Shown here: in pieces, positions 3,155-31,266 of the stretch
Layout: each line of letters starts with the position of its first letter
How positions within the stretch are numbered: the stretch's first letter is position 1
Virus record (IMG/VR): IMGVR_UViG_3300046411_000278
Location: 1-34,792 of that record
Reading direction: 5' to 3' (one strand)
Source: a virus
Length of the DNA stretch: 34,792 nucleotides
Position numbers and translations under genes: made by a program
The notes under the pieces: model-generated
What the model was told of the DNA's origin: nothing
The model's database searches: none
Seen by the model: only the letters and a program-made list of their open reading frames with translations

Positions 3155-3906
3155 TTATCTTTCCTTATCTCTTTGTTGCTTTGTACAGCAGTTTGTAATG
3201 TAGGTAGTGTAGCGCCAAGAACGTTTGCAGAGTACAGTAATGCTTCCGTATCTTTCGGAAAACATGCTCCACCAAAACCTTTGTCGCCGTCTGGACCAGG
3301 AACATGCATATGACTATGTGTAATCCTTTCGTCCATTCCTACCAATGCCTTAACTTGGTTATAATCTATGCCTGCTGTTTTACATAAATTAAATACTTCA
3401 TTAAAGAAAGCAACTTTAGTTGCTAAAAAACTATTTCTTAAATATTTTGTAAAAATTAATTCTTCTACTGTAGCATATATTGGATCAAAACCTTTACATA
3501 AAATAAACACATCGTTCCAAAATTCTACATTGCCTCCACCAAACAACATTTTGGTTTGATTCTTAAAATCTTGATTAGCATTTGCCGCAGTCAAAAATTC
3601 AGGACTAAATGTTATTTCTTTTCCTTGCGGTAATAAATCTTTACGCCAACCTTCTAAACTTATTGTACTTTTTATTAGTATAGGTTTATCTTTTGGACAT
3701 GCTTTAATAACTGTTTCAACAATAGTCATATTACATGCTCCTGTAACTGTTGCTGGTGTCGGAACACAAACAATATAACCGTCGCTGTCATTATCAATAA
3801 TGTTATCGTTAAATTCAGGATCAACAATTTTTACTTCGTGGTAGTCTTTGAGTACTTCGTATACAGCTTTACCGACAAACCCGTACCCAATTAAAGTTAG
3901 TTTCAT
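3151..3906 (-). CDS. UDP-glucose/GDP-mannose dehydrogenase family protein, short form
   Basis: The protein begins with the dinucleotide-binding motif GYGFVG (residues 7-12). SPEFL (101-105) is the conserved substrate-proximal motif, and GFGGACFPKD (210-219) carries the catalytic cysteine Cys215. The family oxidises the C6 hydroxyl of an NDP-sugar to a uronic acid using NAD. Full-length enzymes are about 390-450 aa, whereas this one stops at 251, shortly after the cysteine motif, so it lacks the C-terminal NDP-sugar domain. It might act on a different substrate or lean on a partner such as the adjoining epimerase. It forms a tight operon with that epimerase and a nucleotidyltransferase. Confidence 0.85.
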   Translation of the reverse strand: MKLTLIGYGFVGKAVYEVLKDYHEVKIVDPEFNDNIIDNDSDGYIVCVPTPATVTGACNMTIVETVIKACPKDKPILIKSTISLEGWRKDLLPQGKEITFSPEFLTAANANQDFKNQTKMLFGGGNVEFWNDVFILCKGFDPIYATVEELIFTKYLRNSFLATKVAFFNEVFNLCKTAGIDYNQVKALVGMDERITHSHMHVPGPDGDKGFGGACFPKDTEALLYSANVLGATLPTLQTAVQSNKEIRKDK

Positions 3907-4115
3907 TTAGTCTCCTTTTTTGATTGCAATTTAGGATGGGGTGTTTTATCGTTATAGATATCACCAGCTAATGCTTGTACTTGTTCTACAAGATATGTAA
4001 CCTTATCGACATCATATTCTTTGTCGTGGCTTTTATATTTTTCTCTATGTGCTTGTACGGCAAGTCCATGCATAGCACTAACTTTGTCCATTAGTTGTTG
4101 TATTGTGTGTTGCAT
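3903..4115 (-). CDS. Small protein of unknown function (70 aa)
   Basis: A strong GGAGG site precedes the ATG and the end overlaps the downstream dehydrogenase start by 4 bases, which supports a real gene. The sequence is helical and charged (KVSAMHGLAVQAHREKYKSHDKEYD), with no membrane segment or recognised domain. It sits between DNA polymerase and the nucleotide-sugar genes. No function can be assigned. Confidence 0.65.
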   Translation of the reverse strand: MQHTIQQLMDKVSAMHGLAVQAHREKYKSHDKEYDVDKVTYLVEQVQALAGDIYNDKTPHPKLQSKKETK

Positions 4116-4126
4116 CTTTCCTCCTT

Positions 4127-6796
4127 TTACTCTCCAAATTCAAATAGACTACCAAATGTTGTATTTTGTTTTGTATCTTCTAATGGATAGTCTAGAACAC
4201 CAATCAAGTTGTCTAGTTTGTTGTCAATAATAGTTTCTGCCATTGCCGCATCATCAAATGGCAACTCTTTAAACCAATCTGGAATACGCAATTCATCTGT
4301 TGGATACGCAACGCTTGTGTAACCTAATGGATTTTGTTTTAGTTTGCAAACAATAACTTTCATACCATCTACAATCTCTTGCGAGTACTTGTCACCGTTC
4401 ATACGTTTAAGTGTATTCCAGTTGATACTTGCTCTTACGTGTCCAGGCATGTTTGCTTTGCCTTGTTTTTCTTCAAGACGTTGATAGTGTCCAATTTTGT
4501 TTGCACGTTTAGGCGAACCTTTCTCCCAACCTGGGCGATCACTAAATTCTTTACGGAATTCTGTAATACGATCTAGTACTTCTTTTTGTGGAACTTCAGT
4601 AAGCACCATTAATAGTAGTTCGCTTAGAAACTGTTGCATGAACACAGGAGTATCTGACCTACGCAAGTCCAAGCCCATTGCTTTAACCTTGCCTGGACTG
4701 TCTTCCGAGTCACTTCTAAATCCTTCAATATCATATACAAGTGCCGCATAACGTTTCTTAGTGATATACAAGCCTGATTGTGCTACAATTTCTCTACCTG
4801 CCGCAATTACATCACTACGTGACTTAGGACAATGAAATGCATTATACATAAACTTCTCAAATGTTTCATTTGCCGCTTCACAAACTTGATCATATAGTGT
4901 AATTACATTGTCTTTTGACCAAGGAATCTCGCCTTTATCAATTTGATCTCTTAGTGTCGGATAAGCACTAAAGTAAACAGAGTCTGTATCTCCATAAATT
5001 ACTGATTCGCCTACATGATCATATGTGCCTGTAATTACTTTGTTAACTTCAGCACTCATATGCTTAACAATAGTCCGACCTGATAGTGTAGTTGACTGTC
5101 CGATACGTTTATCAAAAAATCTACAGCCCGGATTAAGTATAGCACCATATAAACTGTTCAAGTTAATCTTCTTAACAAGCTGACGCTTATCCCAATACTC
5201 TATTTCAGTCTTGTTATCAGCATCTTTTGCTTTCTTTAGCATTCCTTGTAATTCTTTACGTTCACTATACCAACGTTTAAGTAATCCTGGTATAACACCT
5301 TCGTGTTCTGTAGTAAAGATTGTACCATTAGAACTAAGCATCCAAGGCTTATTACTATCAAAAATTACTTTGTATATTTCTGCACCGCTTAGAACATCAC
5401 TTTGTCCGTTTTCCCAATCAACAGTAAGTGGAACATCACGTTTTTGTTCCATAACTGCTTCATATTCTTCTGTCGAAAAACGTCCTTCCCAGCTACCTGC
5501 AAATGATTTCTTCTTAAGGCCCATATCTTCTTGAACACGGCTTTCACTTATTTCAGGACGTATTTGTCCTATAATAGTTGCAGGATCCATATTCAATGCA
5601 CGAATAACACTTGGATACAGACTGTTCAAGTCCATAGAGCCAATCCATTTGTGCAAGCCTTTTTTCGGAAACGCAACATATGCACCTGCGGCTTGTGTGT
5701 TTTCTTCGTCACGATGTGGACGATTAGGTACTTGCATACCACGTCTATGTGCTTCGTTTACAATCGCTTGCTCTGTAACTGCAACAGCACCCATAGTGGT
5801 CTGTAGCAAAACAGTATTTGCATGAGCTAGTTCATTACTTAGATCAATAAATCTTAGTTTTTTGTCCAGCTTGTCCAGTAGTGCGGTATCTTGTATGTTG
5901 TATTCAATGAACTTTCTAAAGTCATTGTTGTACAGTTGATCCAAAGTTCCTTCATATGGAACTTTATTCTCTCCAACTTCGATTTCGCCAATGGCATCAA
6001 GTCTATATGTGTGTCTTTCTTCATATGTATATTTACGATAAAGTTCTAAACTATCTAGATGTACTCTACCTATTAGGTCAAAGGTTACAGCTGATTTACC
6101 ATACTTCTCATATTCACGTTTCTTAGGAAGTTGTCCCCATAAACAAAAACGCCTTGTATCATCTTTGCTTAATACACGGCTAGTTCTGTTTACAGTATAC
6201 GGAATATCATAACCTTCACTGTTCCAACCTGACAAAATATCAGCATCTTCAATCAGTGTTAAGAAAGTGTCAATCATTTCACTTTCTTTTTCAAACAACA
6301 TTACGTTGTCAATACCTTCTAGTTCTGCTTTTGCTTCGGACATTGTAAGAGTCTTAGGAGGAACTGCTAAACAGATCATTGTTTCCATCCACTGCAAGTA
6401 TACACTAATACTTGTAATAGGCATAAACGGATCTGCCGGATCAGCAAAGCCACGCTCTGGATCAAAGTCAGTCTCAATATCAAAAAATGCAATGTTTAGT
6501 TTAGGAGCATCTTGATTAAGATAGTTTTCACTTAGGCATTGGAAGATAGGATTGATATCGCTTTCAAACATCTTCTTACCTTTGTTTATTGCAAGTTCTT
6601 TACGAAACTCTTTTGTATTTTTACATACAATTCTGCTTATAGGATCACCATAGATACTTTTGTGTTTGCCTTTTGGATCTTCATAGTAAAATGTATATTT
6701 GATAGGATACTCAGTATACTTTCTTTTGCCGTCTTTGCGTTCTACAACACGGACAATATCGCTATCTCTATCAAATAATGCGTCTACGTAACTCAA
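4127..6796 (-). CDS. 43: DNA polymerase, family B (T4 gp43-like) with 3'-5' exonuclease
   Basis: At 889 aa it nearly equals T4 gp43 (898). Exonuclease motifs: FDIETD (105-110, Exo I), GWNSEGYDIPY (190-200, Exo II) and YNIQDTALL (299-307, Exo III). Polymerase motifs: DLNSLYPSVIR (389-399, motif A), KKINLNSLYGA (542-552, motif B) and YGDTDSVYFS (601-610, motif C with the catalytic Asp pair). The C-terminus ends in a hydrophobic TTFGSLFEF segment that looks like the clamp-binding tail of gp43. All catalytic residues are present, so it should replicate and proofread the phage genome with gp45 and gp44. The start is a TTG preceded by GGGAG and directly adjoining the stop of the upstream oxygenase gene. 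No intein or split is seen. Confidence 0.97.
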   Translation of the reverse strand: MSYVDALFDRDSDIVRVVERKDGKRKYTEYPIKYTFYYEDPKGKHKSIYGDPISRIVCKNTKEFRKELAINKGKKMFESDINPIFQCLSENYLNQDAPKLNIAFFDIETDFDPERGFADPADPFMPITSISVYLQWMETMICLAVPPKTLTMSEAKAELEGIDNVMLFEKESEMIDTFLTLIEDADILSGWNSEGYDIPYTVNRTSRVLSKDDTRRFCLWGQLPKKREYEKYGKSAVTFDLIGRVHLDSLELYRKYTYEERHTYRLDAIGEIEVGENKVPYEGTLDQLYNNDFRKFIEYNIQDTALLDKLDKKLRFIDLSNELAHANTVLLQTTMGAVAVTEQAIVNEAHRRGMQVPNRPHRDEENTQAAGAYVAFPKKGLHKWIGSMDLNSLYPSVIRALNMDPATIIGQIRPEISESRVQEDMGLKKKSFAGSWEGRFSTEEYEAVMEQKRDVPLTVDWENGQSDVLSGAEIYKVIFDSNKPWMLSSNGTIFTTEHEGVIPGLLKRWYSERKELQGMLKKAKDADNKTEIEYWDKRQLVKKINLNSLYGAILNPGCRFFDKRIGQSTTLSGRTIVKHMSAEVNKVITGTYDHVGESVIYGDTDSVYFSAYPTLRDQIDKGEIPWSKDNVITLYDQVCEAANETFEKFMYNAFHCPKSRSDVIAAGREIVAQSGLYITKKRYAALVYDIEGFRSDSEDSPGKVKAMGLDLRRSDTPVFMQQFLSELLLMVLTEVPQKEVLDRITEFRKEFSDRPGWEKGSPKRANKIGHYQRLEEKQGKANMPGHVRASINWNTLKRMNGDKYSQEIVDGMKVIVCKLKQNPLGYTSVAYPTDELRIPDWFKELPFDDAAMAETIIDNKLDNLIGVLDYPLEDTKQNTTFGSLFEFGE

Positions 6797-7964: not shown

Positions 7965-8227
7965 TACGGTTTATCTTTTCCAACTGTAACAACAAGTGTT
8001 TCTAAGTCGTCAAACTCATCAGCAACCTTTTCCCAATCGCCTTTGTGTGCAACTTTAATTGCCTTGTTAATAAGAGCTGGTTTGATATCCAATTCTTCTG
8101 CTATTGCTTTAACAGTTTCTTTAAGACCTGTGCTTAGATCTTCAATTTCACGTAACACTGTAGCACCTTCGTTAACCAAACGTTCTAGTTTAGCCTTCTC
8201 GTCGCCACCGTATACTCTATCACTCAT
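7964..8227 (-). CDS. dsbA: DsbA-like late-transcription/dsDNA-binding protein
   Basis: At 87 aa it matches T4 DsbA (89 aa), a double-stranded DNA-binding protein that favours late-promoter regions. The central helices TVKAIAEELDIKPALINKAIKVAHKGDW align by eye with the T4 stretch of similar pattern (helix, [DE]LG[VI]..KxxNKxxxLxHK[DG][ND]), which reads as a helix-turn-helix. It is first in its operon, behind a perfect sigma70 promoter at 8253..8281, as expected for an early or middle regulator. The identification is from recall of the family and not from an alignment. Confidence 0.65.
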   Translation of the reverse strand: MSDRVYGGDEKAKLERLVNEGATVLREIEDLSTGLKETVKAIAEELDIKPALINKAIKVAHKGDWEKVADEFDDLETLVVTVGKDKP

Positions 8228-8252
8228 AAGATTCTCCTTTAGTTTAAGTTAA

Positions 8253-8281
8253 ATTATACATTATTTTAGGGTGTTTGTCAA
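8253..8281 (-). promoter_or_regulatory. Consensus sigma70 (early) promoter of the dsbA-gp43 operon
   Basis: Minus-strand TTGACA and TATAAT with a 17-base spacer, matching the consensus exactly, 25 bases upstream of the dsbA ATG, which has its own AGGAG-like site. It would drive the run of genes from dsbA down to the nucleotidyltransferase at 2037. Confidence 0.88.
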
Positions 8282-8297
8282 GCGTTATTTTTACCAA

Positions 8298-8729
8298 TTA
8301 TCTTGGCGGACAAATCTCAAAACCGTTGATTTGTTTCTTGTATTCATCTGCATAGCCAATGTATATGTACTTAACGCCTTTGGCTTTATAGTATGCACAT
8401 TCGTGGCGTAGACTCTTTAAACCTAAAAATAAATTAGGATTTTTATAATTCCAAGCAAATTGTATTGCTTCTACATTATGTTTATTGAAGTTATGATAAA
8501 AACTAAATGCAACAAGTTTTTTATTACTGTAATATCCAATTATGTCACTTCTTGGAGCACATAAGTCTTCATTAAACAAAGGCATTACACTTTCAAATTG
8601 TTTGTACTTACAATATTGATCGTATATTACTTGTAATTCTTCTACTGGAGGATTTTCAAACAGTACAGCTGATTTAGACATCCTATAGTTTGTTTTAGAT
8701 AAATTTATTCTAGCATATATGTCGCTCAC
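8298..8729 (-). CDS. GNAT-fold protein resembling the C-terminal half of leucyl/arginyl-tRNA-protein transferases (Bpt/ATE1)
   Basis: At 143 aa it is about half a full Bpt (about 240). The stretch from residue 63 onward follows the ATE1/Bpt C-terminal pattern: IIGYYSNKKLVAFSFYH, then IQFAWNYKNPNLFLGLKSLRHE, then AKGVKYIYIGYADEYKKQINGFE, parallel to the family's LG..e.......G..Y.YLGYwi....kmdYK..f.P. Bpt/ATE enzymes attach Leu or Arg to protein N-termini and so mark them for ClpS/ClpAP. This copy lacks the N-terminal Cys-containing domain, so transferase activity is uncertain; a plain acetyltransferase is the alternative. It starts with GTG, overlaps the upstream stop by 3 bases and has an AGGAT site. 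It is the last gene of a late operon. Confidence 0.5.
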   Translation of the reverse strand: MSDIYARINLSKTNYRMSKSAVLFENPPVEELQVIYDQYCKYKQFESVMPLFNEDLCAPRSDIIGYYSNKKLVAFSFYHNFNKHNVEAIQFAWNYKNPNLFLGLKSLRHECAYYKAKGVKYIYIGYADEYKKQINGFEICPPR

Positions 8730-9223
8730 CGATCCTGCACCTCTTTCTTATATTCCTTCGCCCAATTCTTGTAATAGTTTTTCTTTTCTAACCAAGCTCT
8801 TGCTGTATTTAACTTTTCTTTTTCTTGTATAAGAACTAATCCGTAAGTGCCGTGGTTCAATTTTATTCCTTCTACAACTTCAGGATCATCTGGGTGATCC
8901 TCGAGTGCAACAAATCCACGTTCATCTAACATAGATTTAGTATCGTCTATAATTTTACTTAATTCTTCTGGAGTAATACGACTTGGATTAAAACCTAATA
9001 CAACTACTTCTTTACCTTTAGGCCAGTGATATGTGTAATTTTCTATTTCGGCACTGATCCAAAGTTTTATTTCAAATGTATTATCAAGCCAATGTGTTAG
9101 AACAGATTTATCTAACCAAGCCTTCTTTGCATAAGGACATGGAGGTAGGTTGTTAAAAATTTTTGATGGTTTGCTTAAAAAGTTTTGTATCCAATCATCT
9201 ATGGATGATTCGAAGGTCTGCAT
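8726..9223 (-). CDS. Protein of unknown function (165 aa)
   Basis: The N-terminal part has LPPCPYAKKAW at about residues 26-36, reminiscent of the CPFA/CPYA motif of DUF1415-type proteins. The middle reads KGKEVVVLGFNPSRITPEELSKIIDDTK, a strand followed by a helix. The C-terminus (residues 130-165) is basic and Trp/Tyr/Lys-rich. No signal peptide or membrane segment. It lies between a structural-looking gene and the aminoacyl-transferase-like gene, overlapping the latter by 4 bases. The single proline-flanked cysteine could be catalytic, but I can only call it unknown. Confidence 0.7.
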   Translation of the reverse strand: MQTFESSIDDWIQNFLSKPSKIFNNLPPCPYAKKAWLDKSVLTHWLDNTFEIKLWISAEIENYTYHWPKGKEVVVLGFNPSRITPEELSKIIDDTKSMLDERGFVALEDHPDDPEVVEGIKLNHGTYGLVLIQEKEKLNTARAWLEKKNYYKNWAKEYKKEVQDR

Positions 9224-9225
9224 TA

Positions 9226-10029
9226 CTACATCTTAACGCAGTTGTCTACAGTCTTGCCGCCTTTTTTCTTAGTACCCATACGTTTGTAGCCCTTCCAGCA
9301 TACTTTACCGTCAACACCCTTTTGCTTTTCTTCTGGTAGTGTTGTGTAACTTGGGTTACCGCAGTCTGAACATAGACCTTTTGCTTCGTCTAGTTTTGAT
9401 TGCAAATAATCTACATAAGATTCTTCATTAGATTTTCTAGGTTGTGTTTTATCTTTGTATTCATATCTCTTGTCACCAGCTCTCCAACGTTGATATGCAG
9501 GCGTATTAGCTTTTTCGTCTGCTTTACTAATCTGCATTTTTTCTGCTGGCTTTTTATCTTCTTCTTTAATTTTACCATATGTTATACACGGGTCTTCCCC
9601 ACAACCACAGTTTTTCTTTTTACCTTCCTCAACTTTTTTAGTCTTTGGATTGTCGTGGCTCCAACCTTTTTTTGCTAGATCTTTATGTTCTTTATCTGTA
9701 TTAGCTTTTTTAGATTTGCCATCTTTATACATTGTGTGTGGTTCAAACTTATCATCTTTTTTTGACTCAGATACTTCGTCAAATTTCATTTCATAATCCA
9801 TATGATGATAAACACTGCTTAAATAATCTGCGGCTTTAGTGATCTTAGATTGTACCCAACCTTCAAGTCCTTCACGTTCTTCAACACCTTTTAACATTTC
9901 ATGCATTTTGATTGCATATTTTGCAACCTTGTATAATTCTGCACGTGCCATTTGAACTTCGTGATCTGATTCGACTTTGAAAGCCATATCAGCTAAACCG
10001 TTTTCTTTTAAGTCTTTTTCTCTCATCAT
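9226..10029 (-). CDS. Virion-associated modular protein (267 aa), cysteine-rich C-terminal modules
   Basis: Residues 20-85 form a helical domain (ARAELYKVAKYAIKMHEM, WVQSKITKAADYLSSVYH) that I recall as common in structural-region proteins of marine T4-like phages. A lysine-rich linker follows. Then come short modules: KKGWSHDNPKTKKVEEGKKK with CGCGEDPC (141-148), CSDC (220-223), and a basic Cys tail with CWKGYKRMGTKKKGG then NCVKM (244-267). The cysteines could bind a metal. A GATAAATA late box sits 15 bases upstream of its AAGGAT site and ATG, so late expression is expected. Best guess is an internal-head or decoration protein. Other genes nearby carry comparable basic Cys modules. Confidence 0.65.
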   Translation of the reverse strand: MMREKDLKENGLADMAFKVESDHEVQMARAELYKVAKYAIKMHEMLKGVEEREGLEGWVQSKITKAADYLSSVYHHMDYEMKFDEVSESKKDDKFEPHTMYKDGKSKKANTDKEHKDLAKKGWSHDNPKTKKVEEGKKKNCGCGEDPCITYGKIKEEDKKPAEKMQISKADEKANTPAYQRWRAGDKRYEYKDKTQPRKSNEESYVDYLQSKLDEAKGLCSDCGNPSYTTLPEEKQKGVDGKVCWKGYKRMGTKKKGGKTVDNCVKM

Positions 10030-10044
10030 ATTATCCTTATAGTG

Positions 10045-10052
10045 TATTTATC
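10045..10052 (-). promoter_or_regulatory. T4-type late promoter box (GATAAATA)
   Basis: Seven of eight bases match TATAAATA, the T4 late box, on the minus strand 15 bases before the ATG of 9226..10029, followed by an AAGGAT ribosome-binding site. The position is as expected for a short late leader. Confidence 0.65.
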
Positions 10053-10575
10053 TTTTAATAGTCTTGCCACCCATTAAACTGTTACTAATGTCTAAAGCGT
10101 TTTTTGCTGTTCCATCTGGGTTTTTCTTTTGCGGCGCTTTTGGAACACCATTTTTATCACGTTTTCTGTGACCATATGCTTGTTTTGGGTTAGCAACAGA
10201 TGCTATATTCCCTGCACTTGTAGCACCTGCTGTAGCAGTTTCGCCTATAGTTCCTAATGAATTAAACTCCATAGGAACTTCTGAAGTACCAACTATATTT
10301 TGATACATCTGTAGTAGCTCTTTCGTGGGTCCTTGATCTGATAAACGTTTGTTAAATTCTGTTGCCGCATTATCAGCAACTTCGTCGCCATGTTTATTTG
10401 CTAGTTTATTATATATCTGTGCACCTGGATCAGTAGTGTCCCATTTAGCAGTTTTACTAGGGTTTAATAAAAGTTCTGCTACAGCCCAGCCTAATGTAGG
10501 AAGCATAGCCATCAATGCTGGCGCCAACTCATTGACTGGTTTTTTAATATTATTTGTAAGTTCTCGTATTAACAT
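10048..10575 (-). CDS. Unknown protein, possible capsid-internal or virion protein (175 aa)
   Basis: The N-terminus MLIRELTNN resembles the short targeting peptide seen on neighbouring genes, with an I-x-E site at residues 3-5 where a gp21-type prohead protease could cut. One hydrophobic stretch follows (LAPALMAMLPTLGWAVAELLL, about residues 17-37). The rest is helical, then a Gly/Ala-rich and basic tail (GHRKRDKNGVPKAPQKKNPDG, about 130-152). An AAGG site lies 13 bases ahead of the ATG. Its place between other cargo-like genes suggests a head-associated role, but no domain is recognised. Confidence 0.6.
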   Translation of the reverse strand: MLIRELTNNIKKPVNELAPALMAMLPTLGWAVAELLLNPSKTAKWDTTDPGAQIYNKLANKHGDEVADNAATEFNKRLSDQGPTKELLQMYQNIVGTSEVPMEFNSLGTIGETATAGATSAGNIASVANPKQAYGHRKRDKNGVPKAPQKKNPDGTAKNALDISNSLMGGKTIKR

Positions 10576-10592
10576 GCTAATATTTACCTTTT

Positions 10593-12839
10593 TTACTTGT
10601 TGACTGACACGCCTGTCTTGCTATTTGCTGATATCTTGGTATCAGGACTCATTTGATAGTCTATTGTGTAACCTTTATCCTTATCAATACTTACGCCCAT
10701 GTCTCCGGAACTTACAGAAGTACGATCACCACTTATAAGTTTACCGCTCATGTCATACGTTGCTTTTTGATCTATGCTTGCTCCACTATTTTGTCCTGTA
10801 AAGTCTACTGTTACAGTTTTCTTTGCAATATCGTGTGTTTGCTGTAGACCTTTTATTTTAGGTGTTTCGTATTTTAATAGCTTGCCATCTGGTGAAAATG
10901 TATATGTACCTGCTCCACTTGATACAGTACGGTTACTGTTTTTATCTGTTTGTGTGCTTGTACCATTGTCGTTTGTGCCGTCTGGAGTATCAGCACCTGG
11001 TGCTGGTGGAGGAGTTGGCATTTTTATTATGTCTATATTCTTAGGAGCCATTTGTCCAGGGCCTATATCATTACCTGTGTCCATTGTAGCACTCATTGTT
11101 GTCATTGAATTAAGTTTATCTAATGGAGTATCTATTTTTGCCATGTCTCCTGCTTGAACTGCTCCGGCAATAGTTCCTAATAGTGTTGCTACTAACACAA
11201 GATTTTTTCCTGTCTTAGGAATTTTTTTAAGCATTGGCTTTACTTTTCCTAATAAATTTTTAGGAAGTTTTTTTAAACTATCTGCTATGCCTTCTTGTAA
11301 TTGTTGAGGAGTACTTTCATTCAAAATTTGTAAAAATTCTTTTTCAGTATATAAAGATTCTGATTTCTTTTTACCTGACTTCATATTAGCACACCAGTGA
11401 TACATTTTTGCACGTTCACCTGATGCTTTTTTTGCTTTTGATCTTAAACTTGTTACTGATCCGTTACAACTAGCACCCGATTTCTTTACTCTACCTGGAC
11501 GGCTTTTGCCTTTTTTCTTTCCATCAGCAAAGTTTTCCTTCATCATTCCTAAAACAAATTCAAGAGTGTAAGGAAGTTTAGCAACACTAATCGATTCCAT
11601 TTGTAATAATTTAACTACATCATATCTATGATGTCCATTGATAATTCTATTTGTATTATCAACTACTATAGGTGTATATTCTCCACCTGCAATTTTCTTT
11701 AGTTGTTTAGTATAGTTTTCTTTAAGCCTTTCTTTTTGTACAGGTACAATACTTTCTACTTTTATACTAATAATTTTATGTGGGATATATTCTAAATGTT
11801 TTTTACGTATTTGTGGAAGTTGATTCCTTGTAAAACCTTCTGACTTTTTCTTTTTAGGTAATCCTTTATGTTTTGTAGAGGCAAACTTCTTAACATCAGA
11901 CTTTTTCATATCCTTTGCAACGTCTCCTGCTTCACCACCCTTAGGCATATCACCTTTTTGCATTGCTCTAACAATACCAAAAAACTGTTGTTGTTTTTTG
12001 CTTACTGCTTTTTCTTCAACAGGCTCTGACATATGTTTTTTAATTGCTTTTGCAGTTCTTTCAAACTTATGATCTTTGTGCTTAAAGCCTTCGCCACCAG
12101 CCGCTTCCCAACTTGCAATGTTTTTGCCAAAATCGTCAATTAGTATGTTTGGTGTTCCGTCTTGATTCGTTGCAAACTTTGCTTTATCATGTGTAATGAT
12201 AACATTCTCTGGAGGAAAGAAGTCTAAATTCTTTTTAATCCATTCACGCTTGTGTGGTTCTGAATTAGGGTCATTTGGTAAAGGGCTACTTAAAATAGTA
12301 TAGCTACCTTTTACTTTTTTAATTACACCTAGTAAGTTTTTTGCTTGTGGTAGCAAAGGAAGGTTCAAAAAGAAATCATCTGTATCTCTAATTTTTTGTA
12401 GTTCTGGTTCAATGTCTTTGACATTACGCCAGTCTTTACCTATTAACTTTGTCCATTCTCCAAAAAAGTCTGCTAGTACGCCATCCATGTCAACAAATAC
12501 TTTACTTGTACTTGCTAATTCACCCAAATTCTCTGCCATCTTAGCATAGTATAACATACTTTCATCGGTGTTGTCAACCGATTCTGCAAGGCCTAGATTG
12601 AATAATACATTGGTTTTTGAGCCTTTTACCTTCTTTGATAGTGTAGGTGGGCGTCCATCTTTGTCTACTTTGTTACCAAACTTAGCGGCTTGCTTCTTAA
12701 TAGCATCTACACCAACATCTGCTGTAGTGTTGACACCTTTTACAACACGGCCACCGTGCTCTTGTAAACGCAAATAGTGTTTAAAACTGCCTCGCTTAGG
12801 GACTTTATTTTCAATGTCTCTAAAACTATGAAACTTCAT
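10593..12839 (-). CDS. 748-aa multidomain protein: HAD nucleotidase-like, DUF3008-like, ParB/Srx-like, basic Cys module, membrane/β-rich tail
   Basis: Modules in order: N-terminal peptide MKFHSFRDIE with LQE at 25-27; HAD domain 112-250 resembling 5'(3')-deoxyribonucleotidases (DMDGVLADF 117-125, LSSP 183-186, IDDF 234-237); residues 280-330 with KKQQQFFGIVRAMQKG and FASTKHKGLP, like DUF3008; a ParB/sulfiredoxin-type domain 355-422 with the NGHHRYD motif (401-407); a basic module 442-492 with two cysteines and MYHWCANMKSG; a hydrophobic segment 546-563; a Pro/Thr linker; and a repetitive beta-rich tail 640-748. Several L-x-E sites fall between modules (LAE 84-86, LNE 506-508, LQE 514-516), so prohead-protease cutting into separate parts is possible. 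ParB/Srx-like domains can bind DNA or hydrolyse NTPs. I infer a capsid-packaged composite protein; activities untested. Confidence 0.75.
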   Translation of the reverse strand: MKFHSFRDIENKVPKRGSFKHYLRLQEHGGRVVKGVNTTADVGVDAIKKQAAKFGNKVDKDGRPPTLSKKVKGSKTNVLFNLGLAESVDNTDESMLYYAKMAENLGELASTSKVFVDMDGVLADFFGEWTKLIGKDWRNVKDIEPELQKIRDTDDFFLNLPLLPQAKNLLGVIKKVKGSYTILSSPLPNDPNSEPHKREWIKKNLDFFPPENVIITHDKAKFATNQDGTPNILIDDFGKNIASWEAAGGEGFKHKDHKFERTAKAIKKHMSEPVEEKAVSKKQQQFFGIVRAMQKGDMPKGGEAGDVAKDMKKSDVKKFASTKHKGLPKKKKSEGFTRNQLPQIRKKHLEYIPHKIISIKVESIVPVQKERLKENYTKQLKKIAGGEYTPIVVDNTNRIINGHHRYDVVKLLQMESISVAKLPYTLEFVLGMMKENFADGKKKGKSRPGRVKKSGASCNGSVTSLRSKAKKASGERAKMYHWCANMKSGKKKSESLYTEKEFLQILNESTPQQLQEGIADSLKKLPKNLLGKVKPMLKKIPKTGKNLVLVATLLGTIAGAVQAGDMAKIDTPLDKLNSMTTMSATMDTGNDIGPGQMAPKNIDIIKMPTPPPAPGADTPDGTNDNGTSTQTDKNSNRTVSSGAGTYTFSPDGKLLKYETPKIKGLQQTHDIAKKTVTVDFTGQNSGASIDQKATYDMSGKLISGDRTSVSSGDMGVSIDKDKGYTIDYQMSPDTKISANSKTGVSVNK

Positions 12840-13046: not shown

Positions 13047-13946
13047 TTAGTCAGCCCTTCTGATTTGATATCTTATTCCTAATCTGTCAAACAATTTACC
13101 TGCCGTAGCAATGTTTGTAAGGGCTTGTTTTATTTGTGGCAAGTAATCATCGTTTTGTTCTACTTTATTCATAAACTTTTGTGCTTCGGCTGGTCTAATA
13201 AAAATTAATTTGCCACTCCATGCCGCACCTTTTCTATAAAAACTTAAAAAATGTTCTTTGCCATCAGCACGAGATGCTACCCAATCTAATACTTTAAGTT
13301 TATTAGGGTCTTGTGCCTTGATTGAGGAGTGATCTGTTTTCTTAAATAACTCAAGTTCAGCTATGTTATCTTCTTCAACAGCGTCAACACCCATTATACC
13401 TTGTAATCTTTTGAACATTTCTTCTGCGTGTGGTAACGCTTTTTGAGTGACTCCTTTTTTAAATGACTCTAAATCATTATCCACGACTGTTTGGCGCATC
13501 TTACTTGCACTCATTCCTGTTGCACCTTCAGCATCAGGATCACGATTTAATTGTACGTAATTTATTTTATCGAAGTTATAATTGTGTAATTCTTTTTCAA
13601 CACCGTTGTATTGTTGTAATATTTTTAGTAATTTAGGTTCACCTTCTAAGAAAGTTACTTCGGTGTAACCCATTTTAAATAATCTGTCAGCGGCAGTTAA
13701 TACTGTTTTAGCTAATCCTATACTTACGCCATCAAAGCTCTTACGTGCCCAGTCTAGTTTTTCGTCTGGCGATAAAGGATCTGTAGGTAATTTACTTGCT
13801 CTATCAGTTAAAAATAAAAAAGAATCGCCTGGAGCTTTTTTAATAGCGTCTACAAGTAATGCATGTCCATTTGTTGCTGGGTTCAGTCTGCCAAGTGCAA
13901 AAGAGGCAACTTTACCTTCAGCTTCATATAGTTGTCTTAGTAGCAT
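13047..13946 (-). CDS. Nucleotidyltransferase with capsid-targeting-like N-terminus (299 aa)
   Basis: GRLNPATNGHALLVDAI (residues 19-35) contains the (H/T)xGH nucleotide-binding site. The second signature is GMSASKMR (144-151), the ISTSxxR counterpart. This places it in the NMN-adenylyltransferase/cytidylyltransferase superfamily. The C-terminal half (about 190-299) contains LDWVASRADGKEHFLSFYRKG and is not recognised. The first ten residues, MLLRQLYEAE, resemble T4 capsid-targeting peptides and offer LYE or EAE for gp21-type cleavage, immediately before the enzymatic domain. I infer a head-packaged enzyme injected with DNA. It could be involved in NAD or nucleotide-sugar chemistry; the substrate is unknown. 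Confidence 0.75.
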   Translation of the reverse strand: MLLRQLYEAEGKVASFALGRLNPATNGHALLVDAIKKAPGDSFLFLTDRASKLPTDPLSPDEKLDWARKSFDGVSIGLAKTVLTAADRLFKMGYTEVTFLEGEPKLLKILQQYNGVEKELHNYNFDKINYVQLNRDPDAEGATGMSASKMRQTVVDNDLESFKKGVTQKALPHAEEMFKRLQGIMGVDAVEEDNIAELELFKKTDHSSIKAQDPNKLKVLDWVASRADGKEHFLSFYRKGAAWSGKLIFIRPAEAQKFMNKVEQNDDYLPQIKQALTNIATAGKLFDRLGIRYQIRRAD

Positions 13947-14269: not shown

Positions 14270-15241
14270 TTACCACTTCCTACATGACCAGTAACGTGCC
14301 TTTGTTCTTGGTCCAGGATTATCACAATTATGTCTAGCCCGGAAAGAACGTCTACGTGCAGGGTTTGATTTCTTGATACTCATTGATTTGCCTTTTACAC
14401 TTGAGCCGCCATGTCCAAAGTTTACTTTTTTAATGTTTTTAGTTTTTGGATCTCTAACATATACCTTGAACTTCTTAACATCACCTTGCATTGGCTTGCC
14501 AAGTTTAACTTTACGTCCTTGATACTCTGCTTCATCTATAGGATCATCGTCATCGTTGTACCACATCTCACCGTATGCTTCGTAAAATGCATCATCGTCA
14601 TCATATGTTTCGTCAATACTTGCACCAGCAAGTTCTTTCATTCTATCAAGTTCTTGTGTGCCTTCATCGACACCAAAACCTACAATGTCATCGCCTAAGA
14701 TCTTTGCCGCTTCTTTACAGTTGTCTTCATCAATTGCTGATACACCCATAATTTTTCTAAATTCATTTTCCATAGCATTTGTGATAGGCAACATTTTTGC
14801 AAATTTTTCATCATCATTAAAAAGTTCATCTTCGGCTTCGCTTCTGTCGCCACCAAGCATTTGTACTGCTTTTTCAAGTTCGTTGTCTTCAACACCGTCT
14901 GTTAAAATGCCTGAGTCTATATAACCTCTTAACATTCCTGCTGGTAGTTCGTCACCGTTGTTTCCTCGATACTTGCTGTATTTGTTATACCAAGCCTCTA
15001 ATGCTGACTTGTCTGCTTCATTGACATTTTCGTCACCTGGTGAATATGCTTCTTTTGTCTTTTCAGCTTTACTGTATTTGTCTTTCAAACGTCCTAGTTC
15101 TTCTTGACTTGCACCTTCGCGTCCTGCTTTAGCGGCTTTTTTCATATATTCTTTACCGTGCTTTTTAACACCAGTATAATATTGCAAGCCTGATTCGCTT
15201 GTTTCAGCTTCTTTAAGGTAATCTATAAATGTCTTTGTCAT
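14270..15241 (-). CDS. Probable internal head/prohead-core protein with capsid-targeting sequence (323 aa)
   Basis: The N-terminus MTKTFIDYLKEAETSES closely parallels the T4 internal-protein targeting peptide (MKTYQEFIAEA): a hydrophobic helix ending in L-x-E then Ala, which gp21 protease cuts. A basic region follows (KKHGKEYMKKAAKAGRE), then a long acidic middle (DDDDAFYEAYGEMWYNDDDDP) with an ELDRMKELAGA repeat of the neighbour's N-terminus. The C-terminus is basic (RRRSFRARHNCDNPGPRTKA, then RYWSCRKW) with a Cys pair, likely DNA- or metal-binding. The acidic/basic layout fits a scaffold-core or internal protein. It is first in a late operon behind GATAAATA at 15273..15280. Confidence 0.7.
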   Translation of the reverse strand: MTKTFIDYLKEAETSESGLQYYTGVKKHGKEYMKKAAKAGREGASQEELGRLKDKYSKAEKTKEAYSPGDENVNEADKSALEAWYNKYSKYRGNNGDELPAGMLRGYIDSGILTDGVEDNELEKAVQMLGGDRSEAEDELFNDDEKFAKMLPITNAMENEFRKIMGVSAIDEDNCKEAAKILGDDIVGFGVDEGTQELDRMKELAGASIDETYDDDDAFYEAYGEMWYNDDDDPIDEAEYQGRKVKLGKPMQGDVKKFKVYVRDPKTKNIKKVNFGHGGSSVKGKSMSIKKSNPARRRSFRARHNCDNPGPRTKARYWSCRKW

Positions 15242-15272
15242 GTGTCAACACCCTTTATATTATAATTTAAAG

Positions 15273-15280
15273 TATTTATC
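15273..15280 (-). promoter_or_regulatory. T4-type late promoter box (GATAAATA) of the cargo operon
   Basis: Minus-strand GATAAATA, 31 bases upstream of the ATG of 14270..15241, in the divergent gap 15242-15338 that also carries the speD upstream region on the other strand. Confidence 0.65.
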
Positions 15281-15310
15281 AATATTAGTCAAGCTCTATG
15301 GGTGCAGTGG

Positions 15311-15318
15311 ACTAAATA
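15311..15318 (+). promoter_or_regulatory. Candidate late promoter box (ACTAAATA) of speD
   Basis: Plus-strand ACTAAATA lies 20 bases before the speD ATG, with an AAGGA site in between. It departs from TATAAATA in its first two bases, as does the phoH box (GCTAAATA), so a looser NCTAAATA form may be used on the plus strand. Confidence 0.45.
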
Positions 15319-15338
15319 GAAACCAAAAAGGAACGGCT

Positions 15339-15713
15339 ATGTTGAAGCATAAACACATGATAATTAGAGCTGAAGTAAGCAATCCACCACAATGCGAGCA
15401 AACTATAGTCGATTGGGCTGGTAATTTAATAAGAGATATAGACATGAAAATAATGATGGGGCCGTACGCCAAGTATTGTGAAATGCCAGGCAATAGAGGG
15501 TTTACTTGTGTTACTATTATTGAAACAAGTCACATAGCAATACATGTTTGGGACGAAGTAAAGCCTGCATTAGTACAACTAGATGTATATACGTGTGGTG
15601 AATTAGATAAACGTAAAGTATTTGATGCACTAGAACGCTGGGATCCAGTTAAAATTGAATACAAATATTTAGATAGAGAAAAAGAACTTACTTTAGTTGA
15701 CTTTCATTCTTAA
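15339..15713 (+). CDS. speD: S-adenosylmethionine decarboxylase-like (SpeD) pyruvoyl proenzyme
   Basis: A 124-residue class 1B SpeD-type protein. The family makes decarboxylated AdoMet for spermidine synthesis after self-cleavage to form a pyruvoyl group. ETSHIAIHVWDE then LDVYTCG holds the key residues: Ser64 (cleavage and pyruvoyl source), His69 (processing) and Cys86 (proton donor). All three are present. Bacterial relatives normally read ESH at the cleavage point, whereas here the residue before Ser is Thr. The ATG at 15339 is chosen for its AAGGA site and because the protein family begins near here, though the frame extends to 15240. It is one of two plus-strand genes, and its 3' end overlaps the opposing gene by 21 bases. 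Phage SpeD relatives may have other decarboxylase substrates, so the exact amine is open. Confidence 0.85.
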   Translation: MLKHKHMIIRAEVSNPPQCEQTIVDWAGNLIRDIDMKIMMGPYAKYCEMPGNRGFTCVTIIETSHIAIHVWDEVKPALVQLDVYTCGELDKRKVFDALERWDPVKIEYKYLDREKELTLVDFHS

Positions 15714-17126
15714 TTTAGAACGTGGTCCTTCTTTCATACTAGAACTCACAGCAACTTCAACTTGGCCTGTTGCCATTTCTCTGTTTGGCCATGTAATAAC
15801 TGAATTCATTGCGTTTGCATCTGATATGTTTTGTGGTGCCATTTTGTTAGATAATTTAATAAAATTTTGTTGCAGTGTTTCACGTACTACAGGAGCAAAG
15901 TTAGGTAATGCATTATCTTTGTTTACTACTTTAGAAGTAAGTGCCTCAAAAGCATAGAATATATTTTTGTATTTTTGTACAGGATTGTCTTTATCTTCTA
16001 AAAATTTAGCAAAGTTGTTAACTTTGAGTTTATCTAAAATAGTATCTAAGTATTTAGGAAATGTCTTGCCAGCAATAGCTTCGCTAATTTCAGACTCTGT
16101 GATTTCTCTGTCCATATATAGTCTAAAACCTTGTGCCTCCATTTTGTAAAAGAAGTTTGCATTTAGAAATGCACTATTTTTTGTAGTTGTTTTATCTTGT
16201 AATTCTAAAAATGCCACTGCTCTTGGATTCTTTTCTTTAAGTTCTTTCGGTACTTCGAATTGTCCCATACTAAAGGCCGCACCTTTTCCTGATTTACCAC
16301 CTTTTACAGAAATCCAAATTTTATTTCCTGATACAGGATTTTCAAAGCCTGCTACTGCTCCTTCTGCATCTGCTAATCTTGCATTTTTTGCAGTTGGGAA
16401 TACCATCTTCATTTGATCGAAACTGGTTAAACCAACATGGTCAAAGAATGCTTGTTCAACATCGCCTGTAAATGTTGCCATTCCTTTAAGCATCATAAGC
16501 GGACCAAGATATTCACCTGCATCATCTCTAAACGCGGCAAATTCACCTGAGCTTAATTCACTTAGATCAAAAGTATTATCTTTATTCGCAATTTGTGTAG
16601 CCGCATCGATAACCTTTCGTCCAATTTCAGTTGCTTGTAATTTTTGATTACCTTTTATTGCTTGGAGTAAAGATTCCGCAGTATATTCTGCACCACCTGC
16701 ATCAATACCAATATCTGCTGGTTTTAAACTTGCGGCTTCTTTTCCGCCTGCTACAAATTTACTGCCTCCAAATTCTGCACCTTTAATTAAAGGCGATACA
16801 CTATTTTTTGTATTGATAGGTATTGGAGTTTGTTCAGTATCTTTTACATCGTATCCATATAATGTAAACGGAACTGTTTTATTTTTGCCAGCCGCCCAAG
16901 TTGTAAATACTTTTACATTGTCATACTCTGTAGGTGGATCAGATTGTAATGCAATCTTAGGTGGAATTATAATTTCTTTGCCATCTTTTGTTTTAAAAGG
17001 AGTTGGGTTGTTAATAAAATTTAAAAATGTTTCTTTACGATCAGGTTTTCTATCCTTCATAAGCTCGTCACCTGTTAGATAAGGGGACGCCTCAGTCAGT
17101 TGACTTCTAAATTGGAAATAACGCAT
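15693..17126 (-). CDS. Unknown 477-aa protein with capsid-targeting-like N-terminus
   Basis: It starts MRYFQFRSQLTEASPYL: a short amphipathic helix ending LTE then Ala, like T4 internal-protein targeting peptides. In the core, about residues 245-290, comes NARLADAEGAVAGFENP followed by KIWISVKGGKSGKGAAFS. The acidic residue, then a strand with S-x-K-G-G, is reminiscent of PD-(D/E)xK nuclease-like folds seen in other phage proteins, but I cannot confirm a catalytic set. No membrane segment. A GAGG site precedes the ATG, which overlaps the upstream stop by 1 base. Likely packaged or head-associated; function unknown. Confidence 0.65.
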   Translation of the reverse strand: MRYFQFRSQLTEASPYLTGDELMKDRKPDRKETFLNFINNPTPFKTKDGKEIIIPPKIALQSDPPTEYDNVKVFTTWAAGKNKTVPFTLYGYDVKDTEQTPIPINTKNSVSPLIKGAEFGGSKFVAGGKEAASLKPADIGIDAGGAEYTAESLLQAIKGNQKLQATEIGRKVIDAATQIANKDNTFDLSELSSGEFAAFRDDAGEYLGPLMMLKGMATFTGDVEQAFFDHVGLTSFDQMKMVFPTAKNARLADAEGAVAGFENPVSGNKIWISVKGGKSGKGAAFSMGQFEVPKELKEKNPRAVAFLELQDKTTTKNSAFLNANFFYKMEAQGFRLYMDREITESEISEAIAGKTFPKYLDTILDKLKVNNFAKFLEDKDNPVQKYKNIFYAFEALTSKVVNKDNALPNFAPVVRETLQQNFIKLSNKMAPQNISDANAMNSVITWPNREMATGQVEVAVSSSMKEGPRSKLRMKVN

Positions 17127-17746: not shown

Positions 17747-18433
17747 CTATTTATGCAAATCCTTTTGTGAAACATATTTTATAATACGTCGGATTTGTCC
17801 TCCTAAAGCTATTTTTGCTAACATTAGATATCGTTCATTTTTAGCATAAAAGTAAAAACCTTCGGCAAAATGGTTGTTACGTACAACACGTTTTGCAACA
17901 TTGCCTATTCTAAATCCGTCTGGATTGTTTTCACAATAGTCTGCAAAATTAGGATCAACTTTCTTCCCTAATATTGCTTTGAATTCCCATTCAACGTCAC
18001 CGTCAATTATTTTAGTGTTTGCATTATCTATAAGATAGTTGAAAATTTCATCATTTTCAGGTTCATGCCATTGTACTGCACTGACTTGTGTTTGCAATTT
18101 ATGTAACCAATCTGGTTCGTTTGAATACATATCTAAGTTGTATCCTTCGCAACGCACCATAGCATTACTTTTATTTTTTTCTAGTGCATTGTACACAACG
18201 CAGGCATCCATAAATGTTTCTAAATCAATAGTCATATTTTTCCTACGTGCTAAATGGTTAAAAGGACATGATATAGGCAACTCTGACTCTGCTTCTCTTT
18301 GCATAGCATCTAGTTTTGATTTAACATATCCTAGATTCAATCCGCGAAACATAGATGCAATAGTGCTCTTTACACGTAGCTTGTATAGATACTTGTTATA
18401 AAATAACTTAGTTGTGTAATACTTTTGTAACAT
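17747..18433 (-). CDS. Unknown protein co-transcribed with clpA (228 aa)
   Basis: No recognised family. It begins with a Tyr/Lys-rich stretch (LQKYYTTKLFYNKYLYKL), has LETFMDACVVYNALEK and YNLDMYSNEPDWLHKLQ mid-protein, and ends NNHFAEGFYFYAKNERYLMLAKI then a basic tail. No membrane segment, signal peptide or nucleotide-binding motif. It overlaps the clpA end by 26 bases with an AAAAGG site, so it should be translated with ClpA from the clpA promoter. The location makes it a candidate ClpA adaptor or substrate selector; that is inference from position only. Confidence 0.7.
   Translation of the reverse strand: MLQKYYTTKLFYNKYLYKLRVKSTIASMFRGLNLGYVKSKLDAMQREAESELPISCPFNHLARRKNMTIDLETFMDACVVYNALEKNKSNAMVRCEGYNLDMYSNEPDWLHKLQTQVSAVQWHEPENDEIFNYLIDNANTKIIDGDVEWEFKAILGKKVDPNFADYCENNPDGFRIGNVAKRVVRNNHFAEGFYFYAKNERYLMLAKIALGGQIRRIIKYVSQKDLHK
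17748..17755 (-). promoter_or_regulatory. Possible late promoter box (CATAAATA) very close to a start codon
   Basis: It matches the late box in seven of eight bases but lies only 5 bases before the ATG at 17742, so transcription would begin at or near the start codon. Either the mRNA is nearly leaderless or the match is chance. Confidence 0.4.
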
Positions 18434-20666
18434 CTTTTACCTTTTCAGTAATAGGTTTTAGATGCAATTTATTGTCAGCAACATCAATTTTTAAAGTACC
18501 ACCGTCTTTTAGATCGCCGAATAAAAGCATCTTACTTAGGGGTCGTTTAATTTGTTTGTCGATATATCTGTGCATAGGTCTTGCACCCATCTTATCATCA
18601 AAACCATTTTCTACAAGATGGTCTAATGCATCGTCACTAATTTCGCAAACTACATTTTTATCATCAAGCATGTTTTTAAGTTCAAGCAAGAACTTACCAA
18701 CAATTTTTAGCATAATAGGTTTTTCAAGTTTACCAAACGTAACTACACCATCAAGTCTATTTCTAAATTCTGGAGCAAAGAAACGTTTAAATTCTTCGTC
18801 ACCATAATCACCAGCTAAATCTTGACTAAATCCTATAGTGTTTTTCTCAGCTTGTTCTGCACCTAAGTTAGTTGTAAGGATTAAGATACAATTACGTGCA
18901 TCTGCTTCTTTACCGTCACTTCCGGTAATCTTACCATTGTCCATAATTTGCAATAAAATTTGTGCAATGTCTGGGTGTGCTTTTTCAATTTCATCAAGTA
19001 ATAAAACACAATTAGGATGTTCTTGTAGTTGATTAATTAACTGTCCTGAATGTTCGTCGTGGCCAACATACCCTGGAGGAGAACCAATTAACTTACTTAC
19101 ACTATGTTTTTCTTGATATTCTGACATATCAAAACGTGCAAGGTGTATGCTTAGATTCTTTGCAAGTTGTTTAGCAAGTTCAGTCTTACCAACACCTGTT
19201 GGGCCCATGAATACAAACGATCCAATTGGTTTTTCTTCTGATTTAAGTCCTGCTTGTGCAACAAGTATCTTGTCAACAATTTCTTCAATTGCATTGTCTT
19301 GTCCATACACATTAAGTTTAAGGTTCTTGTCAAGACTTGCTAGATTATTAGTTTCTTTTTGTTGTATTTGTTCTGGAGGAAGATTTACAAACTTAGCAAG
19401 TTCAAATTTAATCTCTTCAGGACCAACAACACGATCTCCTGTAACATTGTTTACTTTAAACCGTGAACATGCTAAGTCGATTAAGTCAATTGCTTTGTCA
19501 GGTAACTTTTTATCAGTAATGTATTTTACTGAAAGTTTAACTGCTTCATCAATTGCTTCTTGTGTAATAGTAGTTGCATGGAATTCTTCGTAATACTTTT
19601 TAATACCATGTAGAATATCTGTTGTTGTTTTCTTATCAGGTTCGTCAACACTTACACGTTGGAACCTACGCATTAATGCTCTATCTTTTTCAAAATATTT
19701 TCTATATTCGTCCCAAGTAGTAGAAGCTACAACTTTAATATCACCTTTACCTAAGGCAGGTTTCAGCATATTTGCTAAATCATTAGAGCTATTGCTACCA
19801 CCAGCACCAGCACCATTCATCATGTGTGCTTCGTCAATGAATACAATCGTTTTGCCTTGACGTTTGATTGCGGCCATAACTAATTTGAAACGTTCTTCAA
19901 AGTCTCCTCGGTATTTACTACCTGCCAACATAGCACCAATGTCTAAATTGTATACTGAATACTCTTCAAGGAATGTAGGAACATCTTTGTTAACAATTCT
20001 GTATGCAAGTCCTTCTGCAATAGCAGTTTTACCAACACCTGGATCACCAACTAATAGGACATTATTTTTTTGTCTACGTCCTAATGACAAGCAAATGCTT
20101 TCTAGTTCTTCTGTACGTCCAATCACAGGATCAATTTTACCATCAACAACTTCTTGGTTCAAGTTAGAAGTAAATGCTTTCAAAGCTCGTTGTGCATGTC
20201 CTTGTAATTCTTCATCTTCTACATTTGAAACAAATTCGTTGTTTATATAATTGCTGAATGCATCTTTATCTACACCTGCTTTTGTTACTTGGTAAGTTGA
20301 ATATGATTTCTTTTCGTTAAGCAATGATAAAAATACATCACAAATATCAATGTGCTGACGCCCGCTAAACAATACTTGTGTAAATGCTCTATTCATAACA
20401 CGTTCTACAGTTTGTGTTTTCTTAGGCTTATATTTTGTGCCTTCAGGAACTTTAATATCGTCTAGTTTAGTTTGAAGATACTGCAATAGCTCGTTTTGCA
20501 ATGGTTGCACTTCAATACCAAATCCTGTCAAGATGTTAGTAAAGTTTTCTGTGCATAGCATAGCAAACAATAGATGCTCTAATGTCACATATTCGTGATT
20601 TAGTCTCTTAGCATCTTTAATTGCTTTATCAAATACAACCTGTAATTCTTCAGATGGTTCAACCAT
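18408..20666 (-). CDS. clpA: ClpA-type AAA+ unfoldase (ATP-dependent Clp protease ATP-binding subunit)
   Basis: At 752 aa it is near E. coli ClpA (758). An N-domain of Clp-N repeats spans residues 1-145 (NHEYVTLEHLLFAML, then RQHIDICDVFLSLL); in ClpA this domain binds ClpS. D1 has Walker A GDPGVGKT (207-214), Walker B VFIDEAH (275-281) and pore loop KYRGDFEER. D2 has Walker A GPTGVGKT (488-495), Walker B VLLLDEIEKAH (554-564) and pore loop SPPGYVGHDE. There is no ClpB-type middle coiled coil. IGF at 611-613 in the D2 loop (ClpA usually IGL, ClpX IGF) is the ClpP-docking tripeptide. It should unfold proteins for host ClpP; no ClpP or ClpS gene is visible here. A perfect sigma70 promoter (20700..20728) lies upstream, so it is likely made early. 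Confidence 0.95.
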   Translation of the reverse strand: MVEPSEELQVVFDKAIKDAKRLNHEYVTLEHLLFAMLCTENFTNILTGFGIEVQPLQNELLQYLQTKLDDIKVPEGTKYKPKKTQTVERVMNRAFTQVLFSGRQHIDICDVFLSLLNEKKSYSTYQVTKAGVDKDAFSNYINNEFVSNVEDEELQGHAQRALKAFTSNLNQEVVDGKIDPVIGRTEELESICLSLGRRQKNNVLLVGDPGVGKTAIAEGLAYRIVNKDVPTFLEEYSVYNLDIGAMLAGSKYRGDFEERFKLVMAAIKRQGKTIVFIDEAHMMNGAGAGGSNSSNDLANMLKPALGKGDIKVVASTTWDEYRKYFEKDRALMRRFQRVSVDEPDKKTTTDILHGIKKYYEEFHATTITQEAIDEAVKLSVKYITDKKLPDKAIDLIDLACSRFKVNNVTGDRVVGPEEIKFELAKFVNLPPEQIQQKETNNLASLDKNLKLNVYGQDNAIEEIVDKILVAQAGLKSEEKPIGSFVFMGPTGVGKTELAKQLAKNLSIHLARFDMSEYQEKHSVSKLIGSPPGYVGHDEHSGQLINQLQEHPNCVLLLDEIEKAHPDIAQILLQIMDNGKITGSDGKEADARNCILILTTNLGAEQAEKNTIGFSQDLAGDYGDEEFKRFFAPEFRNRLDGVVTFGKLEKPIMLKIVGKFLLELKNMLDDKNVVCEISDDALDHLVENGFDDKMGARPMHRYIDKQIKRPLSKMLLFGDLKDGGTLKIDVADNKLHLKPITEKVKDVTKVLHN

Positions 20667-31265: not shown

Positions 31266-31266
31266 T

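Follow-up and report, generated by a model that had tools for sequence, protein, structure and literature searches.

What would a phage do with a single chain that joins a nucleotidase, a ParB-like domain and several stretches of quite different character? The question is raised by one gene in a viral DNA fragment of 34,792 nucleotides (IMG/VR record IMGVR_UViG_3300046411_000278), here called the window. The initial annotation described a chimera whose parts a prohead protease could release, an interpretation that, as a whole, is partly supported. Judged from sequence comparison, the 748-residue product is probably a modular cargo polyprotein of a T4-related marine myovirus, packaged in the capsid, processed by gp21 and injected in pieces.

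Modules of the protein and their exchange among relatives

The gene (10593..12839) has an ATG start and lies, like all its parts, on the minus strand. Alignment with relatives sets off a capsid-targeting-like N-terminus (residues 1-27; 12759..12839) ending in LQE|H, where the bar marks the candidate cut, in line with the rule for T4 capsid-targeting sequences (L/I-X-E; PMC9026906). A conserved leader, the N-module, follows (residues 28-86; 12582..12758) and ends in LAE|S (84-86; 12582-12590). Next come a HAD domain of the 5'(3')-deoxyribonucleotidase type (residues 107-276; 12012..12521), a basic DUF3008-like module (277-334; 11838..12011) and a ParB/Srx-like domain with GHHRY at 402-406 (345-432; 11544..11807). 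A basic C-module, recognised by sequence comparison, starts at MKE|N (residues 433-492; 11364..11543; MKE at 433-435, 11535-11543). The chain closes with a helical segment, T1 (498-592; 11064..11348), and a beta-rich tail, T2 (593-748; 10596..11063), delimited by the model together with alignment or relatives. The initial annotation had named the central domains correctly and missed the leader and the basic Cys module. Of its "membrane/beta tail", the beta part stands; the "membrane" part is the helical T1, with one Sec-signal-like stretch recognised by eye (KTGKNLVLVATLLGTIAGAVQA, residues 542-563; 11151-11216).

An AlphaFold2 model recovers both the HAD and the ParB folds, mostly at pLDDT 80-97; failure to find them had been named beforehand as grounds for rejecting the initial interpretation. 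The C-module and T1 are modelled as helical and the tail as an antiparallel beta region. The leader, the linkers and the DUF3008 part are disordered in the model; pLDDT drops below 50 over residues 275-332, and the DUF3008 part is predicted to be mostly disordered. The HAD domain matches Pfam NT5C (PF06941, 1.6e-9) and PHROG 2643 (1.2e-22), and its model aligns with 3bwv over 145 residues (Z 15.2, rmsd 2.9). All four motifs claimed for it (DxD, S/T, K and DD) are intact, at D117, D119, S/T184, K197, K219, D235 and D236, and 48 of 49 relatives retain the catalytic residues; by fold and motifs, the domain is assigned to the NT5C 5'(3')-deoxyribonucleotidase type. The DUF3008-like module scores under the Pfam gathering threshold (PF11450, 17.7 bits against a cut-off of 24, E 0.0042), matches PHROG 28725 at 2.5e-20 and shares about 50-73% identity with cyanophage homologues. 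It is best classed, on these matches, as a related but diverged DUF3008 module. The ParB-like part matches PHROG 620 (1.1e-7). In Foldseek, its model retrieves ParB-CDP 6sdk (E 9e-4) and sulfiredoxin 2rii (E 1.4e-2); both this fold and the conserved arginine of the GHHR motif are present, the GHHRY being intact as first reported, and point to membership in the ParB/Srx group. The C-module carries 19 K/R, 3 D/E and two conserved cysteines. For the tail, nothing rises above noise in Pfam or PHROGs, sequence profiles match nothing in the PDB, and Foldseek of the tail model alone against PDB and BFVD returns only weak single-sheet beta fold matches, none at E <= 0.001. Pfam detects no peptidase domain in the protein.

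A second, separate contig (L001) carries a collinear ORF with all seven modules (8001-10334), which contradicts assembly error as the origin of the gene. Between the two ORFs, dN/dS from the N- to the C-terminal module is 0.30, 0.07, 0.01, 0.07, 0.16, 0.12 and 0.31. Every module is below 0.31 or at it, so the whole chain is maintained as protein. The multi-domain ORF with HAD, DUF3008-like and ParB/Srx parts is therefore no artefact, and the Pfam and PHROG matches, the model and L001 agree on it.

An IMG/VR scan found 595 relatives, 80 of them retained. Module profiles reveal a recurring plan of N-module, HAD, variable inserts, optional ParB, C-module and optional tail, from which architectures depart by insertion, loss, splitting and reordering. 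In L004, the leader, HAD and C-module are 90-92% identical to those of the window protein and an unrelated insert replaces DUF3008 and ParB, a pattern that indicates cassette exchange. The tail (T1 and T2) is an ORF of its own in L006, L007 and L009, starting MRY(T/V)EFKQFDVKSFLSE|G, and the beta tail ends the neighbouring cytidyltransferase/nucleotidyltransferase-like protein in L043, L045, L052 and L053. Leader, HAD and C-module occupy three consecutive ORFs in L065; modules are likewise split or reordered in L006, in L069/L070 and in D-P-N-H-C and P-N-H-C ORFs. Other versions are fused (L015, L003, L002). The initial annotation had held that split ORFs in a different order would count against it. 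This is partly the case, for relatives split the modules and sometimes reorder them (L065, L006, L069/L070 and the isolates HTVC008M and Melnitz), and the fused form persists in L001; what they reveal is a shuffled modular system in place of a single odd chimera, and the protease idea survives them.

The leader travels beyond this combination. A leader-only scan gave 435 relatives, and 41 of the 82 leader ORFs analysed have no HAD of this type. Cargos behind the leader include Cu/Zn superoxide dismutase (SOD; Pfam 2.2e-47), a GH19 lysozyme-like domain (1.8e-9), a LysM protein, DUF5661 and ParB. The C-module terminates cytidyltransferases, SOD proteins, HAD proteins and a CCA-adding-enzyme-like protein (PolyA_pol 5.9e-36), and also stands alone in ORFs of 65-67 aa (e.g., MRIFEVVE|NFADGKKK...). 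From their distribution, the leader and the basic C-module appear to be portable. Three loci combine Cu/Zn SOD domains with the leader and/or the C-module (L147 418-1335, L228 1675-3705, L242 673-3552) and are candidates for a head-packaged SOD. The CCA-adding/polyA-polymerase-like protein of L065 (9154-10461), with the C-module at its end, adjoins the separate leader and HAD ORFs. An HExxH insert with a weak Peptidase_M78/SprT-like metallopeptidase match occurs in L038 (residues 68-201 of ORF 2947-4644) and L072, the only such modules in the family. Inserts in L022, L017, L048 and L236 looked ADP-ribosyltransferase-like by eye; Pfam gave nothing useful, and this reading was dropped.

The phage itself has no close cultured relative in the collection of phage records searched, since megablast of 25 kb of the window found no match there. 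The C-module likewise found none by tblastn. The N-module occurs among these records only in Sinorhizobium phage Phosso, as a stand-alone ORF of 64 aa with a targeting segment ending in LLE|D; Phosso also encodes gp21 and gp23. The window DNA polymerase is closest to those of the jumbo phages Phosso (50%) and Atu_ph07 (45%).

Candidate protease sites at module borders

The three L-x-E sites first reported in the linkers lie where they were placed (LAE 84-86, LNE 506-508, LQE 514-516), and LQE 25-27, MAE 101-103 and MKE 433-435 also fall at borders. LKE 372-374 falls within the ParB domain, and LGE 105-107 and MSE 270-272 make poorer candidates. Candidate cuts, predicted from these motifs, are after residues 27, 86, 435, 508 and 516, and possibly 103. 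No clean site marks the DUF3008/ParB border, and cutting would thus not release every module; the pair may stay joined to one another or to the HAD.

Several of these sites are conserved. Most short-form leader ORFs begin M[KR]xxx[LIF]xE|[DGEN]; the window segment is longer and ends in LQE|H. Among 65 non-identical ORFs, 58 close the leader with [LIM]xE; the next residue is mostly S or G, and the middle one is A, T, S, V or K. In the tail, all nine T1 homologues keep L and E of LNE|S (11316..11324) around a middle N, L, T, V, K or I, and all nine have LxE|G at LQE|G (11292..11300), x being Q, E or D. Across linkers, [LIM]xE|[ASGN] occurs 132 times against 39+-7 in shuffled sequences, compared with 30 against 36 in folded modules. 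After redundancy reduction, linkers retain 48 sites against 28.6 expected, a count reached by 0 of 300 shuffles, although the sequences are related and shuffling overstates their independence; the folded-module control then comprises 10 sequences, too few to use. The control motifs [LIM]xD, [KR]xE, [LIM]xxE and [LIM]E are not enriched, and [LIM]xK is so weakly (z 2.0).

The strongest site evidence comes from the junctions between cargo and C-module, since upstream residues contributed by unrelated cargos still fit the protease rule. In 80 independent contexts, P1 is E in 80 of 80, P3 is L, I, M, V or F in 59 (background 24%; binomial p 9e-21, optimistic for related sequences), and P2 and P4 show no departure from background. 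As a sequence pattern, these positions reproduce the rule of T4 gp21, L/I-x-E.

These sites also bear on another possibility, that the protein is packaged as a polyvalent-type chain, enters the head by its N-terminus and loses the leader alone, with no polyprotein processing. T4 Alt and the internal proteins (IPs) are mainly trimmed at their ends (PMC9026906), injection as large chains is predicted for polyvalent proteins from many phages (PMC5512222), and conservation of the leader site is very high. However, the internal LNE|S, LQE|G and MKE|N keep L or M together with E while the middle residue drifts, and the 80-junction pattern sits at the C-module and not at the leader. Removal of the leader alone is unlikely.

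Neighbouring genes, prohead protease and virion proteins

The gene lies in a minus-strand cluster whose members often begin like capsid-targeted proteins. A cytidyltransferase/NMNAT-like neighbour (13047..13946; phrog_3041, 4.8e-30) starts MLLRQLYE|A. Scanning of ORF N-termini adds MTKTFIDYLKE|A (14270..15241), MRYFQFRSQLTE|A (15693..17126) and MMREKDLKE|N (9226..10029), the last with a similar gene in the same place in G003 (locus L089). Such N-termini occur in 8 of 45 window genes (1.9 expected) and in 7 of 22 genes of the L089 stretch (1.1 expected).

Other genes of the window deserve mention in their own right. A ClpA/ClpB-type double AAA+ protein (18408-20666, minus strand) and a DnaJ-like protein (20725-21540, minus strand) are encoded just upstream of the cargo cluster, and the same gene order recurs in L089. 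Inside the cluster, a plus-strand ORF (15240-15713) may encode an S-adenosylmethionine decarboxylase (SpeD)-like protein, judging by eye. A second HAD-like protein (PHROG 420; 30693-31316, minus strand) lies apart from the cargo ORF, and a small sugar-nucleotide cassette (2037-3906, minus strand) holds UDP-glucose dehydrogenase-, epimerase- and adenylyltransferase-like genes.

The window, a 34.8-kb fragment, yielded neither gp21 nor gp23. Two relatives, G001 and G003, encode a T4-like gp21 (S77), gp23 and portal, and their gp23 carries the same L-x-E motif (YLAE|AATAGAS or YLAE|NATAGAT). A gp21-type prohead protease is present in both and in the isolates Phosso, HTVC008M, Melnitz and S-SCSM1. 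Among the IMG/VR relatives tested for PF03420 and gp23, only two gave matches. The large leader-bearing contigs G014 and G015 match no gp21, gp23 or T4 portal profile, a point against the polyprotein reading, and S77 and S78 searches of other large records, several of them fragments, found no match. Leader-bearing virus contigs of 275 kb (L119) and 237 kb (L160) lack matches to the S77 protease, gp23 and T4 portal profiles.

Homologues of two parts of this system are reported in virions. In S-SCSM1, five consecutive genes (89-93), including an NMNAT that starts MKSFLQFLKE|A and a stand-alone DUF3008 (SSCSM1_93), are annotated as virion proteins, and the proteome of CsCl-purified virions names the NMNAT (PMC9602691). 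Cytidylyltransferase is also present in virions of S-SZBM1 (PMC9146016) and S-CREM2 (PMC10665884), which brings mass-spectrometric detection of the family to three cyanophages (PMC9602691, PMC9146016, PMC10665884). This evidence covers homologues of the DUF3008 module (D) and of the neighbouring cytidyltransferase, not the fusion itself. Pelagibacter phage HTVC008M and Methylophilales phage Melnitz encode the HAD separately, in a gene of 196 or 170 aa a few genes after the cytidyltransferase. Taken with the conserved and enriched L-x-E sites at borders and the targeting-like N-termini nearby, gp21 in relatives lends strong comparative support to the proposal that a prohead protease might release the parts.

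The same findings weigh against a mosaic that never enters the virion, in which recombined early or middle genes would supply HAD and ParB activities to nucleotide metabolism in the infected cell during replication and the L-x-E motifs would be chance or structural. Phage NT5C genes (PHROG 2643) share the fold and catalytic residues of the window HAD and are common as stand-alone metabolic genes, and the window does hold replication genes. In contrast to such genes, the window HAD sits between a leader and other modules. The site statistics, the targeting-like N-termini in the cluster and the virion data for homologues of two parts make this reading quite improbable.

Proposed head cargo and comparison with known systems

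Gp21 of T4 cuts after L/I-X-E and removes short N-terminal capsid-targeting sequences from internal proteins (PMC9026906, PMC5694885). The window protein resembles the IPs and Alt in its short N-terminal M..(L/I/F)xE segment, the L/I-x-E rule, its basic cargo pieces, gp21 and gp23 in relatives and neighbouring genes that begin in a similar way; a targeting-like propeptide ending in L/I-x-E, a feature of T4-type internal proteins, is recognisable in its sequence. Unlike them, each a single mature protein with a short propeptide, it has a second conserved leader of ~57 aa, several unrelated domains and internal sites.

Phages and conjugative elements encode polyvalent proteins, multidomain effectors for which packaging in the capsid is predicted (Iyer et al., 2017; PMC5512222). 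These too place unrelated domains, ParB-like ones included, in one chain or use them alone or recombined, and the window protein likewise has at least two unrelated catalytic or binding domains recombined elsewhere (HAD, ParB and others). It was consequently too strong to say that such domains come together in no described system. The likeness has bounds: polyvalent processing is ascribed to embedded zincin peptidases, typical though not universal, whereas the window protein shows no peptidase domain in Pfam. The portions of PMC5512222 consulted describe no capsid-targeting leader, L-x-E sites or this cargo set, and mention T4-like only for Alt, stated to be absent from genuine polyvalent proteins; its main text uses neither the term cyanophage nor haloacid.

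Two further comparisons are closer in single parts. ParB-like phage proteins (PHROG 620; DdrB of P1) have the ParB/Srx fold and GHHR motif in common with the window domain, and DdrB is packaged in P1 heads, but the window domain is only 88 aa. The S-SCSM1 cluster of ORFs 89-93 also places a cytidyltransferase near DUF3008 and genes with targeting-like N-termini, yet its DUF3008 is a stand-alone ORF of 69 aa, with no leader, HAD or ParB fusion. A literature search that excluded most subscription journals and all preprints found no paper describing this combination.

For the polyprotein reading, the following course can be proposed. The N-terminus and leader would direct the precursor to the core of the prohead, where a gp21-type protease would cut [LIMV]xE sites between modules. 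The pieces freed would be the deoxyribonucleotidase with the basic DUF3008 peptide, the ParB/Srx domain (perhaps acting on nucleotides or DNA), the basic Cys peptide and the helical/beta tail. Packed with the DNA, they would enter the host on infection; within the first minutes, the enzymes may then act on nucleotides or DNA, whether of the host or of the phage. Exchange of cargo cassettes between cut sites would be the way in which this gene lineage evolves.

An extension of this proposal, for which the case is evenly balanced, is a cassette system in which a leader with two cut sites loads interchangeable enzymes from single genes and frees them in the head, some cuts exposing a Sec/Tat-like export signal. 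Its putative cargos would be deoxyribonucleotidase, ParB, CuZn superoxide dismutase, lysozyme, CCA-adding enzyme and nucleotidyltransferase. By eye, the Sec-like stretch of T1 would come after a cut at LQE|G, and in L007 (2443-4431), L009 (2138-4729), L015 (2262-5402) and L059 (7968-10490), hydrophobic segments of Tat-like type, RRxF[LM], directly follow [LI]xE; Tat-module scans gave 2 and 5 loci only, too few to generalise. Since cutting would expose such signals, injected pieces could possibly be re-exported to the host periplasm, a suggestion drawn by eye from a small sample.

From the tail and HAD that form separate ORFs in several relatives, one might imagine that the ORF is an assembly error or arose by accidental read-through between neighbouring genes in recent times, with no function as one protein; this is scarcely credible given the same seven-module order in L001, the fused forms of three other loci and purifying selection on every module.

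If the polyprotein reading is right, the [LIMV]xE junction rule would unite T4 capsid-targeted internal proteins and polyvalent effectors, which have been described separately. The rule could then predict head cargo among the "hypothetical" genes of abundant marine myoviruses, and would offer a testable account of the cytidyltransferases, nucleotidases and SOD in or near virion-protein clusters. It would also supply naturally occurring tags with which enzymes could be packed into phage heads.
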